From: Alkaliphilus serpentinus
GTDB taxonomy: Bacteria > Bacillota > Clostridia > Peptostreptococcales > Natronincolaceae
Assembly (NCBI RefSeq): GCF_009017255.1
Contig: NZ_WBZB01000004.1
Coordinates: forward strand, 1-64,000
Direction: 5' to 3'
DNA: 64,000 nucleotides
Shown piece after piece: positions 7,993 through 38,101 of this stretch. Position 1 is the first letter of the stretch. Each line of letters begins with the position of its first letter. The notes under the pieces are model-generated. The model ran no database searches. It worked only from the letters and a program-made list of their open reading frames with translations, and had not been told where the DNA came from. The translations under genes and the position numbers were made by a program.

Positions 7993-9109
7993 CCCTAATC
8001 AAAATCAATGAATCCTCCTGTAGAAAGTGTTGTCCCTTTACAATCACTTGGTCACCTAATTCTATCCCGTTTAAAATCTCCACTGTATCCTCTGCCATAA
8101 TACCAATATCTACAGCTCTTTTTTCTGATTTTTGATCTTTTCCTATATAAACATGGGTACCCTCTTGATCTTGAATAACTGCTTCCTTTGGTATAACAAT
8201 GGCTCTATCCTTATACTCTTTTGTGATTTCAACCAATACATAACTGCCGGCTGATAACTTGTTATCACCATTGTTTATAGAAATTTCAGCTAAATAAAGA
8301 CCGCTTCTAGGATCTCCCACAGGATTTAAAACTTTAATTACACCCTTTTTCGTTGATTCTTCATATTTTACCAAAACATCATCCCCTATAGATAGATGAT
8401 TCAGTAGATCCTTGGTTACATTGATGGATATCTTCAGTTCATCAGTATTTGAGATGATTAAAGCCGGTCCATTTCCAAGAAAGGCCTGACTTTTCTGTAT
8501 ATTTAGTTGTGAAACGATTCCTTCTATGGGGGCATGATATTCCAGCTCACTAAGAAGCTGTATGGAATTTGAATATACTTGCCGAGCTTGCTCTACCTGT
8601 ATTTCGGCTCCCCTTAATATCTCATCACCACCAAGGTTATTGCTGATGTTGGGAAGGGCATTATTGTTAAAGACCTTTAATAGTCCTCCTTTTTCCTGTA
8701 AGGCTTCCAATTCTCCTGCTTGCTTCTCCATTTCCTCTATAGAAAGCTTCTGTAAACGAAGATTTTCCCTTGCAAATTCATAGTTCTCCTTAGCCTGTTC
8801 CACCTGTTTTCTTATTAAGGTTTTGTCCAGCTCAAACAAAAAATCCCCATCCTTAACTCTATCCCCTAGCTTTACTGCAAGGTTTGTTACCTTTAAGCCA
8901 GGCTGACGGGCTATAATCATGGCATTATTAGAAGGCATTAGTTGACCTGCTAAGGTAACCTTCTCCTGAATTTCATCCATTTTTACCTCGTAGACCTCTA
9001 CTGCAATTGCTTCCTGTTGATTATCAGCATTGTTTCCTTGGCAGCTGGTGATCAGTATCATTGCTAAGGCCATTGTTGTAACTATTAGAATGCTTCTAAT
9101 CCTCTTCAC
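7970..9109 (-). CDS. RND efflux adaptor lipoprotein (membrane fusion protein)
   Basis: The 379-residue product begins with a lipoprotein signal ending in the lipobox LITSC (Cys23), so it is anchored to the outer face of the membrane. A biotinyl-lipoyl-like half-motif follows (PGLKVTNLAVKLGDRVKDG, about 70-88), then a coiled-coil hairpin rich in Glu/Gln/Leu (about 95-180), the second half-motif, and beta-barrel domains. This is the order of AcrA/HlyD-type adaptors. It precedes and overlaps the permease gene. The GTG start has AAGGAGG seven bases upstream. The gene follows a duplicated terminator and the inserted element, so its promoter must lie in the short stretch 9110-9208 or inside the element. 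Confidence 0.93.
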   Translation of the reverse strand: MKRIRSILIVTTMALAMILITSCQGNNADNQQEAIAVEVYEVKMDEIQEKVTLAGQLMPSNNAMIIARQPGLKVTNLAVKLGDRVKDGDFLFELDKTLIRKQVEQAKENYEFARENLRLQKLSIEEMEKQAGELEALQEKGGLLKVFNNNALPNISNNLGGDEILRGAEIQVEQARQVYSNSIQLLSELEYHAPIEGIVSQLNIQKSQAFLGNGPALIISNTDELKISINVTKDLLNHLSIGDDVLVKYEESTKKGVIKVLNPVGDPRSGLYLAEISINNGDNKLSAGSYVLVEITKEYKDRAIVIPKEAVIQDQEGTHVYIGKDQKSEKRAVDIGIMAEDTVEILNGIELGDQVIVKGQHFLQEDSLILIRGEEIEAN

Positions 9110-9208
9110 TAGACAACCTCCTTATAACAATCCTTACCTTAATAAATATGTGCATTTTCTGGTAAAATAAACGAAGTAAAAATTACCTACTAATTTAATG
9201 GCATAAAA

Positions 9209-9450
9209 AAACTGAGGTAAAATACCTCAGTTTCAGACTGATGAAAAACCCTCATCTTCTTTGTTGCTTTACAAAACCAGCATTTTCATTAACCCCTGAG
9301 AGACAGACCCAGCCATATTACAGCCTTACGTATTTCTGTATACGCTGCAATCGCTGGTTTTGCTTGCGCCTCGAATCTAAGTGCTTTTGATCAGTCTGCA
9401 TCTTGAATACTTTGTCTTCAATCTAAAACTGAGGTAAAATACCTCAGTTT
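9209..9450. mobile_element. structured repeat element, copy 1, flanked by duplicated terminator hairpins
   Basis: A 192-bp core (9234-9425) lies between two identical 25-bp hairpins (9209-9233 and 9426-9450; 11-bp arms AAACTGAGGTA/TACCTCAGTTT, loop AAA). The core has nested inverted repeats: CAGACTGATGAAAA near its left end pairs with TTTTGATCAGTCTG, and inside that AAAACCAGC pairs with GCTGGTTTT. About 27 bases lie outside the outer pair on the right. A second copy, with a different flanking hairpin, is at 37898-38101; copy 1 has about 40 extra bases in the middle (near 9285-9325). No open frame is present. It behaves like a non-autonomous mobile element with a terminator as target duplication. 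Family unknown to me. Confidence 0.75.
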
Positions 9451-9452
9451 TT
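9426..9452 (-). terminator. kbl terminator (right copy of the duplicated hairpin)
   Basis: Read on the minus strand, 11-bp stem arms ending in a T run lie 12 bases after the kbl stop codon. The identical hairpin at 9209-9233 is also followed by T residues on the minus strand, so either copy can end transcription before the efflux operon. Confidence 0.85.
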
Positions 9453-9463
9453 AGATTTGCTAC

Positions 9464-10651
9464 CTACAACAGCTTCAGTTCTTCTCCAACCTTTTTGAAG
9501 ACTTCAACAGCTTTATCCAGCTGTTCAGTTGTATGTCCTGCTGTAACCATACATCTTAATCTTCCTGTTCCTTTTGGAACAGTTGGGAATACGATACCAG
9601 ATACAAAAACTCCATTGTCAAATAGCTTCTTGCTAAATTCCATAGTCTTGGCTTCATCTCCAATAATTACAGGAGTGATGGGGGTTTGACTATTTCCAAT
9701 ATTAAAGCCCAGTTGACTGATTTTATCCTTAAAGTATCTTGCATTACTCCATAATCTATCGGTAAACTCTGTTGTACTCATTAATATTCTTACTGCCTCA
9801 TTTATGGCCCCTACAGCAGCTGGAGGTAAATAAGTACTAAATAATAGTGGTCTACCCCTATGGCTTAACCATTCCTTCATGGTTTCGCTTCCTGCCACAT
9901 AGCCACCTATTACTCCAATGGCTTTAGAAAGGGTTCCGATTGTAAAGTCCACTCTACCATGTAGTCCAAAATGGTCTACAGTACCTCTACCGCTTTCTCC
10001 AAGGACTCCAGAGCCATGGGCATCATCCACATAGGTCATGGCACCATATTTCTCAGCTAATTCAACAATACCAGGAAGGGGAGCAATATCTCCATCCATA
10101 CTAAATACTCCATCGGTGATGATTAAAAGGTTTCTGTATTTATCTCTATTGGCCTTAAGTACCTCTTCAAGATGATTTAAATCAGCATGCTTAAATACTG
10201 TTTTATCTGCTCTGCTTAGCCTTGATCCATCAATGATACTGGCATGGTTTAACTCATCAGAAATGATTAGGTCTCCCTTTTCTGTTATGGCTTGAATGGT
10301 TCCAGCATTACAATTGAAGCCAGATTGATATACCATTACGGCTTCTTCTCGCTTAAATTCAGCAAGTAATTGTTCCATTTCCTCATGAATATCCATATTT
10401 CCAATGATGGTTCTTACAGCTCCTGCACCTACACCATATTTTTCAACGGCTTCGATGGCAGCCTTTTTCATCCTTGGATGATTGGCTAATCCAAGATAAT
10501 TATTAGAGGAAAGATTAATTACTCTTTTACCATTCAAAATGACTTCTGCTTCGTTGGCTCCTTCTAAGATTGGCAACCTACGATATACACCCTGATCCTT
10601 AAGTTCTTGAATTTTCTCCTTCAAAAAGTTCAGTTCATGAACATTTGACAT
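9464..10651 (-). CDS. kbl: glycine C-acetyltransferase (2-amino-3-ketobutyrate CoA ligase)
   Basis: This PLP enzyme splits 2-amino-3-ketobutyrate with CoA into glycine and acetyl-CoA, the second step of threonine breakdown. The 395-residue length and fold type I alpha-oxoamine synthase pattern fit: [14 protein letters not shown] near residue 45, [30 protein letters not shown] (PLP-contacting Asp/His) and [16 protein letters not shown] with the Schiff-base Lys near residue 240. It lies 76 bases after tdh, which supplies its substrate, with an AAGGAGG site before the ATG. Related BioF and serine palmitoyltransferases share the fold, but the tdh neighbour settles the assignment. Confidence 0.95.
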
Positions 10652-36586: not shown

Positions 36587-37906
36587 ATGAAAACTTCAGC
36601 AAAGATATTTAAGGCCTTAATAGTAACCTTAATTATTTTTTTGGGATTAACAACCCTCACTTATGCCACACCTCCTACCATCACGGCCCCAAATGCCATT
36701 ATAATGGATTACGAAACAGGTAATGTTTTATATCAGCATAACGCTCATGAGGTTACATACCCTGCCAGTACAACTAAAGCCTTAACAGCCATCATCGCTA
36801 TTGAAACCTTAGATTTAGATGAAGAAATAACAGTAGATTATGATATATATGTACCTGGCTCTAGTATGTATCTATTAAAGGGGGAATCCTTCACCGTCAG
36901 AGAGCTTATACAAGCCTTATTGGTTCGCTCAGCCAATGATGTTGCAGAGCTTTTGGCTATAAGAATTTCTGGTTCTGTAGAGGAATTTGCAGTATTGATG
37001 AACAAAAGGGCTAAGGAAATGGGTGCATTAAACACTACCTTCACCAATCCCCATGGCTTACCGGATGAAGATCACTTAACTACGGCCTATGATTTAGCAG
37101 CCATCGCTAGATATGCTATGGAAAATGAATTTTTTAGAGAAACGATATTAATTGATTTTCTAACCTTTGATGAAACTGAACAAACTCCCGAGAAAAGATA
37201 TTTTAGAAACACCAATAGATTTCTTTGGGCTACAGGTGGTGGAAATCAAATTATTTATAATGGCAAGTATATAGACATTAAATATGATATAGTGGATGGA
37301 GTAAAAACTGGATATACTCGAGATGCGCAACAAACCATTATTACCTCCGCAGTTAAAGATGGAAGACGGCTTATAGTAGTTGTTTTAGGTGCCCAGAGTA
37401 CAAATGTTTATTTAGATGCTAGAACATTAATTGACTATGGCTTTGATAATTTCCAAGAAGTTCAATTGGTTGGAGCCAATAATTTTCAACAGGAGATTCT
37501 TGTTGATAATGCCCTGGTAGAAAACCTCTCTTTATATACCAACAAAGACCTTTCGGCCATCCTTCCAAAGGATTTTGATATAAACAGCATCACGAAAGAG
37601 GTTATCATCAATGATGGAATTATAGCTCCCCTAGAGGCAGGAACCACTTTAGGTAAGCTGGTTTATAGAGCTGGAGATCAGATTTTAGGCGAGGTAGATT
37701 TAATTGTAAATGAAGCAATAGAGGCTAAACCTATATTCATAAGAAGTAAAAGGTTTCTCCATATCATTATTGGAGTCATATTATTTATCATTCTATGGCA
37801 GATCTTTATTAACTATCTTCGATATAGAAAAAAAAGGAGACAATTTATCTCCTATAGTGGTAGAAGCTCCTACCATTTTAGTAAAAGTCTAATGAAGAAG
37901 CGATAG
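36587..37906 (+). CDS. D-alanyl-D-alanine carboxypeptidase (PBP5/DacF type)
   Basis: This penicillin-binding protein trims the terminal D-Ala from peptidoglycan stems. The 439-residue protein has a signal peptide (about 1-27), the active-site motifs SxxK in PASTTKALT (near 61), SxN in RSANDVAELL and KTG in DGVKTGYTR, a C-terminal beta domain, and a C-terminal membrane helix (about 389-409) followed by a basic tail. The AAGGAG site lies before the ATG. The last codons and the stop lie inside the left hairpin of the inserted repeat element copy 2. Whether it is the vegetative or sporulation (DacF/DacB) version is not decidable. Confidence 0.94.
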   Translation: MKTSAKIFKALIVTLIIFLGLTTLTYATPPTITAPNAIIMDYETGNVLYQHNAHEVTYPASTTKALTAIIAIETLDLDEEITVDYDIYVPGSSMYLLKGESFTVRELIQALLVRSANDVAELLAIRISGSVEEFAVLMNKRAKEMGALNTTFTNPHGLPDEDHLTTAYDLAAIARYAMENEFFRETILIDFLTFDETEQTPEKRYFRNTNRFLWATGGGNQIIYNGKYIDIKYDIVDGVKTGYTRDAQQTIITSAVKDGRRLIVVVLGAQSTNVYLDARTLIDYGFDNFQEVQLVGANNFQQEILVDNALVENLSLYTNKDLSAILPKDFDINSITKEVIINDGIIAPLEAGTTLGKLVYRAGDQILGEVDLIVNEAIEAKPIFIRSKRFLHIIIGVILFIILWQIFINYLRYRKKRRQFISYSGRSSYHFSKSLMKKR

Positions 37907-38101
37907 GTTAAAACCTATCGCTTCAGACTGATGAAAAACCCTCATCTTCTTTGTTGCTTCACAAAACCAGCATTCTTACGTATTTCTGTATACGCTGCAA
38001 TCGCTGGTTTTGCTTTCGTCTCGAATCTAAAGGCTTTTGATCAGTCTGCATCTTGAATACTTTGTCTTCAATTTAAAGCGATAGGTTAAAACCTATCGCT
38101 T
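37898..38101. mobile_element. structured repeat element, copy 2, flanked by duplicated terminator hairpins
   Basis: A 152-bp core (37924-38075) is nearly identical to copy 1 (9234-9425) except for a 40-base deletion. It lies between two identical 26-bp hairpins (37898-37923 and 38076-38101; arms AAGCGATAGG/CCTATCGCTT). These hairpins differ completely from those of copy 1. The core again starts CAGACTGATG, has the TTTTGATCAGTCTG partner, and has the inner AAAACCAGC/GCTGGTTTT pair. Orientation on the plus strand is the same as copy 1. The left hairpin overlaps the carboxypeptidase stop codon, and the right one lies 9 bases from the ridA stop. Confidence 0.78.

Follow-up and report, generated by a model that had tools for sequence, protein, structure and literature searches.

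The repeated element studied here, present twice in the first 64,000 nucleotides of contig NZ_WBZB01000004.1 of Alkaliphilus serpentinus (hereafter the window), is very probably (we put the probability at about 0.85) a MITE, that is, a non-autonomous derivative with IS1182-family ends which is moved in trans by an IS1182 DDE transposase choosing its target by structure, and which duplicates the whole hairpin that it enters. Bacterial MITEs are short, non-coding elements with terminal inverted repeats that produce a target duplication and have ends like those of an autonomous element. Most full-length copies of the present element stand between hairpin-sized repeats that vary from site to site, their ends are IS1182-like, and at two sites of IS1182 relatives one hairpin has been converted to two.

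Copy 1 in the window consists of a 191-bp core (9234-9424) between perfect 26-bp direct repeats (9208-9233 and 9425-9450), while copy 2 has a 152-bp core (37924-38075) between 26-bp repeats (37898-37923 and 38076-38101). A preliminary description of this DNA had noted a core between two identical hairpins and given its size as 192 bp; the arrangement was confirmed and the size is 191 bp. The same description had held that the core is common to both copies and the flanking hairpins different, and comparison of the two copies bore this out, since their cores are related and their hairpins unrelated. All four 26-bp repeats fold as single hairpins, with z scores of -7.3 (copy 1) and -7.8 (copy 2) relative to dinucleotide shuffles. 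Copy 1 exceeds copy 2 by 39 bp, chiefly through one stretch that is absent from copy 2, and the longest frame over its core with an ATG, GTG or TTG start is 49 amino acids. An outer inverted repeat (CAGACTGAT...) had been taken for the right end of the element, but the real right terminal repeat is at 9411-9424, about 26 bp farther out. The parts of both copies are as follows.

9208..9233, unstranded: left copy of the duplicated terminator hairpin, AAAACTGAGGTAAAATACCTCAGTTT; exact direct repeat with a single-hairpin fold
9234..9424, + strand: MITE copy 1, the 191-bp long form; its genome has 57 matching pieces, counting copy 1
9234..9248, + strand: left terminal inverted repeat CAGACTGATGAAAAA, with likeness to the IS1182 left ends GAGACTGTTGACAAAG and CAGACTGTTGACAAAG
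9273..9281, + strand: 5' arm of the inner covarying stem (AAAACCAGC); position from sequence, helix 3 of the covariation analysis
9353..9361, + strand: 3' arm of the inner covarying stem (GCTGGTTTT); position from sequence, helix 3 of the covariation analysis
9384..9398, - strand: internal inverted copy of the left terminal repeat (CAGACTGATCAAAAG on the - strand), from sequence comparison
9411..9424, - strand: right terminal inverted repeat (AGATTGAAGACAAA on the - strand); compared by eye, its place matches the IS1182 right end ...TTTGTAATCAACCTC
9425..9450, unstranded: right copy of the duplicated hairpin, adjoining the kbl-like gene end; exact direct repeat
9464..10651, - strand: kbl-like gene for a class I/II aminotransferase, the terminator of which was the target; assigned from domain and gene order
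37898..37923, unstranded: left hairpin of copy 2, AAGCGATAGGTTAAAACCTATCGCTT, containing the stop codon of the upstream gene; direct repeat and fold
37924..38075, + strand: MITE copy 2, the 152-bp short form, located where two genes converge; from sequence comparison
38076..38101, unstranded: right hairpin of copy 2; direct repeat

A tdh-like dehydrogenase gene lies beside the kbl-like gene, and both names rest on domain and gene order.

The element belongs to a multicopy family that is short, lacks a transposase gene and has terminal inverted repeats. The core matched 57 pieces in the window's own genome (G000), split copies being counted repeatedly, and it found matches in at least 10 of 20 genomes of the host's family, the own genome included. 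Exact matches to a degenerate 26-nt pattern were confined to 38 stretches of Alkaliphilus peptidifermentans and Natronincola peptidivorans among 84,980 species genomes, a collection in which the window's genome is perhaps not included. Using a core profile, we obtained 52 full-length copies from the fetched stretches, 15 in G000 and 37 in a related genome (G007); these were drawn from chosen stretches among the BLAST matches listed rather than from whole genomes, and 11 of them had seeded the profile. Full length was defined as coverage of both ends of the 151-position model, which left out 32 of 47 hits in G000 and 4 of 41 in G007. Copy 2 of the window is counted within the 52 (as L005). Outside them stand copy 1, which is split by its extra stretch, copies with hairpin repeats such as L009, L013, L014 and L019, and degenerate copies that have no repeats. 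The G000 copies have diverged further, with a median pairwise identity of 0.79 as against 0.89 in G007, where 20 of 37 have a neighbour at 98% identity or more. Other genomes of the host's family yielded 24 profile hits, six of them full length and kept separate from the 52; four of the six had repeats scoring at least 14, one was imperfect (L153, 9.5) and one had none (L113). On Natronincola contigs, nine profile hits fell on eight loci, and all four full-length copies (L253, L256, L269 and L265) had hairpin repeats; some of these loci coincide with other-genome loci (L102, L111) already counted.

Two further arrangements were seen during this survey. Three places in G000 (L033, L034 and L038, on contigs C3, C5 and C52) carry another non-coding core, ~220 bp long and similar in its ends (CAGACTGTTGAAAAA ... 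TTTTCAACAACCTC), and duplicated palindromes flank two of the three copies. At L152 (G001:C5) and L151 (G009:C84), three MITE-like units are arranged head-to-tail at spacings of ~119 and ~124 bp, with no hairpins between them.

The fold of the core was analysed on 15 copies picked for diversity from G000, G007 and Natronincola. It comprises nested stems together with a separate small stem beside the right end, and 96.1% of cells are paired. Changes on both sides were found in 9 of 38 pairs, a figure reached by 12 of 500 shuffles. The covariation score was 0.187, compared with 0.057 +- 0.010 for shuffled alignments and at most 0.052 for slid versions, over which a structure predicted from the same 15 copies has an advantage. 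Further pair types, one of five covariation measures, were not above the shuffles (151/500). Such covarying stems could have arisen because selection maintains a fold in the RNA or DNA, or because the palindrome has corrected itself repeatedly, and template-switch correction within a palindrome can also yield paired changes. They are what would be expected if the core were a conserved structured RNA or DNA module that had been spread for a host function, its mobility being incidental. We regard this explanation as rather unlikely, because near-identical copies at unrelated terminators, combined with IS1182-like ends, indicate a transposon, the paired changes have the other possible source just given, and the first 150 nt of copy 1 fold only weakly as DNA (z -1.5).

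Direct repeats were searched between the left and right flanks of each copy without any palindrome criterion. They were present at both ends of 43 of the 52 full-length copies (12/15 in G000 and 31/37 in G007), and of 32 of 41 when the profile seeds, all 11 of which have repeats, were excluded. The repeats of these 43 copies measure 17-40 bp (median 24), left and right are identical in 22, and in 40 the centre of the repeat is no more than 1 nt from a dyad. A strict palindrome test (at least 6 pairs, 85% paired, centred) was passed by 36 of the 43, as against 379 of 20000 windows placed at random in the same fetched stretches (1.9%) and 0 of 123 frames shifted along the left flank; the preliminary proposal that the flanks of other copies should be checked for duplicated palindromes is answered by these counts. 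When left flanks were compared with right flanks of copies on other loci, a repeat appeared in only 2 of 2634 pairs, both between L119 and L141, which share a hairpin, and the flanking repeats therefore exceed chance. Trimming of element letters misplaced some repeat boundaries: at least two of the three off-centre calls (L016 and one L133 copy) are dyad-centred when untrimmed, and the computed minimum of 16 bp is a trimming artefact (21 bp untrimmed), the smallest sound repeat being one of 17 bp (L131). A T-run follows the right hairpin in 31 of 42 cases and an A-run precedes the left hairpin in 30 of 42, with one or the other in 40 of 42; a random 8-mer reaches the T threshold in 25%, so that either run would arise by chance in about 44%.

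The remaining nine of the 52 copies are accounted for individually. L022 and L142 show eroded hairpins, and a further two copies are those of the nested locus L119. In L012 a hairpin is present only on the right, L123 has a 19-bp repeat that is not palindromic and is offset from the model end, and L042, L134 and L143 lack a flanking repeat. Outside the 52, L002 has a 21-bp repeat equal to half a hairpin and ending in the loop. With repeats on both sides of 43 of 52 copies, the family departs from the IS1272 type of insertion, in which the target hairpin is reportedly removed and not duplicated.

Several loci have unusual hairpin arrangements. The right hairpin is the exact reverse complement of the left, as in a flipped loop, in L110 (G008:C62) and L265 (Natronincola peptidivorans), and L024 (G000:C4:5184) has a flipped loop between its hairpin copies with one mismatch; a weak tendency in this direction is seen in L153. 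L119 (G007:C72, about 157.3-157.7 kb) is a composite of MITE, hairpin and MITE inside a different duplicated hairpin, and its internal hairpin equals the one that flanks L141 (G007:C22, about 58.8 kb), as though a pair of elements had moved together with the hairpin that they enclose. At L129 (G007:C35, 5890-6330) the order is hairpin, MITE, hairpin, MITE, hairpin, with all hairpins alike, apparently through a second insertion into an already duplicated hairpin.

Most DDE transposons produce a short duplication of nearly fixed length. The duplications seen here range from 17 to 40 bp and are centred on the dyad, and are therefore incompatible with a fixed stagger; joining at the 5' foot followed by repair would fit them. 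Specifically, an IS1182-family transposase would select the terminator palindrome by its structure, which is probably that of an extruded cruciform or hairpin, and would link each 3' end of the element to one target strand at the hairpin's 5' foot. Copying of the entire hairpin during repair would then leave a complete hairpin on each side, and the duplication would be as long as the hairpin. As an alternative, duplex terminators might be recognised by their sequence or by a bound protein and opened by an ordinary staggered cut, with no need of extrusion. The targets do have terminator features in common, and extrusion is a step that we infer; we nevertheless judge this alternative unlikely, since the duplications stay centred on the dyad over the whole range of lengths, unlike those of a fixed stagger, and the target sequences vary by site.

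Candidate sources of the transposase were found among IS1182 relatives, in keeping with the earlier proposal that the core depends on a protein encoded elsewhere: the related genome G007 contains IS1182-family transposase genes with matching ends. Fragments of IS1182-type transposases lie at many G007 contig ends; a complete gene was not seen in this genome, where the genes are split at contig ends and matched by N- or C-terminal pieces only. The left end (GAGACTGTTGACAAAG) and right end (TTTGTAATCAACCTC) of the G007 IS1182 elements resemble the MITE ends and abut hairpins. Compared by eye, GAGACTGTTGACAAAG.../...TTTGTAATCAACCTC is similar, not identical, to the MITE form AGACTG(A/T)TGAAAAA.../...TTCAACAACCTC or TTTGTCTTCAATCT, and of the 8 distinct hairpins at left ends, 7 were found again at one of the 10 right ends. 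Another 20 IS1182 loci were taken from five other genomes of the host's order; 14 of them have direct repeats beside their terminal repeats. Twelve of these 14 are palindromic by our criterion (16-35 bp) and two are not (L189 and L201). The six loci with no usable repeat are L186, L197, L203, L205, L202 and L198; the stretches of L202 and L205 stop at their contig ends, and L198 has a 23-bp repeat but lacks good terminal repeats. In L098/L082 the repeat of the IS spans only the central part of a longer palindrome. The transposases of L195 and L204 score 449 and 447 bits, above the NCBIfam IS1182 cut-off of 270 (NF033551). Thus, direct repeats of IS1182 elements vary in length and are palindromic in some members. 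A long-repeat scan of IS1182 loci taken from PF13751 found few elements, many of the loci being incomplete or belonging to other subgroups.

No intact IS1182 gene with matching ends was found in the window's own genome, an 83-contig draft. One gene on contig C54 encodes 388 amino acids and is above the IS1182 cut-off; it is shorter than the ~500 amino acids of L195 and L204, and only its left end is MITE-like. A divergent IS1182 gene on C42 does not reach the cut-off, and its repeat, of 12 bp, is not a hairpin. Since only one short and one divergent IS1182 gene were found, the helper may have been lost from this genome or be missing from the draft assembly.

Plasmids allowed filled and empty sites of IS1182 elements to be compared. 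Eleven IS1182 loci on named plasmids were chosen from 40 matches listed among 1812 records; two of the eleven loci (L226 and L228) share one site. Hairpin repeats of 22-30 bp were present in five of the 11: Sutcliffiella (30 bp), Cetobacterium (22), Peribacillus pB (24), Enterococcus raffinosus (22) and E. faecium pELF_AA94 (27 bp, 2 bases beyond the hairpin). The other six have no repeat, unclear ends or, in L223, unlike hairpins at the two ends. In the latter locus, on plasmid pA of Peribacillus sp. R9-11, two different hairpins flank the IS1182 element, which suggests recombination or deletion beside the insertion. pELF_AA55 and pELF_JHP80 have a single hairpin at the site where pELF_AA94 has two, with a left flank match of 100%; a third record like them is among the matches listed, and the sites counted are the fetched ones. 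This filled and empty pair of Enterococcus pELF linear plasmids (L227/L230) involves an ISEfa7-like element, with one hairpin becoming two. Similarly, E. raffinosus pF162_2_1 has one hairpin where p1_Er676 has two, the adjoining flank being 95% identical over 145 bp. pELF_GK941 (L232), which lacks the hairpin of the L227/L230 site, was excluded as an empty site, and a search for empty sites of the Sutcliffiella and Cetobacterium insertions returned only the same record. These pairs are direct evidence of hairpin duplication by IS1182 elements; by analogy, the MITE itself would duplicate its target in the same way.

The hairpins had been regarded at the outset as target duplications and not part of the element, and their variation among copies, together with the one-hairpin empty and two-hairpin filled sites of two IS1182 relatives, upholds this. 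It is very improbable that the whole hairpin-core-hairpin array is the mobile unit. Secondary carriage of a hairpin is possible, as the composite at L119 shares its internal hairpin with L141; these two loci also account for both matches among the 2634 cross-copy pairs, the outcome of looking for a flanking hairpin shared between copies, and the empty sites retain one hairpin.

Group IIC introns and REP/RAYT elements also occur at terminators or palindromes. On grounds of location the element might thus be a mobile group IIC intron remnant or a REP/RAYT-type element, but its long target duplications and ends in common with DDE-type elements, with no Rfam family reaching the gathering score over 9000-9600, make this extremely improbable, and both were rejected. 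Group II introns and other Rfam RNAs were rejected likewise, as the Rfam search of 9000-9600 returned three weak matches (E 0.29 to 0.83), all under the gathering score.

The preliminary description knew of no family that would fit, but targeting of terminator hairpins by members of the IS1182 family is already on record in the accessible text of three papers (PMC3098183, PMC4923244, PMC5678879). Sites of the clostridial ISCbo5 are there described as hairpins at gene ends in all cases except one (PMC3098183), and hairpin-long repeats may already stand in the direct-repeat table of ISCbo5 in the supplement to that paper. The ISfinder repeat range for IS1182 is quoted as 2-60 bp (PMC7335449). 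For IS1272 and TnSha1 of staphylococci, which also belong to the IS1182 family, the text available describes inverted repeats and terminators as targets, with no sequence consensus (PMC4923244, PMC5678879), and partial deletion of the hairpin by TnSha1 (Furi et al. 2016, PMC4923244). To explain hairpin replacement by IS1272, Wan et al. 2017 (PMC5678879) proposed attack at the 3' foot; the legend of their Fig 13 presents a 5'-foot pathway b as a hypothetical alternative. A 2025 study of Thermoanaerobacter kivui states, in the sections seen, that the action of IS1182 transposases need not involve duplication or deletion of the target, although it can, and that these enzymes may recognise a structure in the DNA (PMC12056078). 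The portions consulted of PMC3196728, PMC9208149 and PMC3281130 contain nothing on hairpin-long repeats, and in the open literature, as far as its available text extends, we found no measurement of hairpin-long duplications across many copies, which are perhaps known to specialists.

The element shares with the IS1182 insertion sequences ISCbo5/ISBma2 and ISEfa7, as they appear in the available text, related ends, hairpin targets at gene ends and, probably, dependence on an IS1182 transposase. In contrast to them, it has no transposase gene, and the duplication was measured here for individual copies and compared with plasmid empty sites in two cases. Inverted-repeat and terminator targets are likewise common to it and to IS1272/TnSha1 as described in those sources, which replace or partly delete the hairpin without duplication, whereas the family of the window element duplicates it. 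With bacterial MITEs in general it has in common shortness, the lack of coding capacity, terminal inverted repeats, target duplication and the ends of an autonomous element; it differs from them in duplications that are long, variable and palindromic and in a core with covarying stems. We conclude that this is a real, well-supported MITE family of a known kind, which does not appear in those parts of the literature that were examined, and that it offers an unusually clear record of structure-sized target duplication.

On balance we lean towards a more general model, in which this branch of IS1182 reads DNA shape rather than sequence, docks on the junction of an extruded cruciform and joins both 5' feet, so that the target hairpin sets the length of the duplication. 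Members of the family would differ by the foot that is attacked, the 5' foot giving duplication and the 3' foot giving replacement, as proposed for IS1272, and the flipped loops of L110, L265 and L024 would be scars of the extruded intermediate. The 43 sites, together with the two plasmid empty sites, provide natural evidence for a pathway that, in the text available to us, was only hypothesised by Wan et al. 2017 (PMC5678879). Since the footprint equals the target hairpin in length, the choice of target by structure can be tested directly by varying stem length. For the element and its hosts, landing at gene ends and leaving a hairpin on each side suggests a possible way to multiply and yet spare genes.
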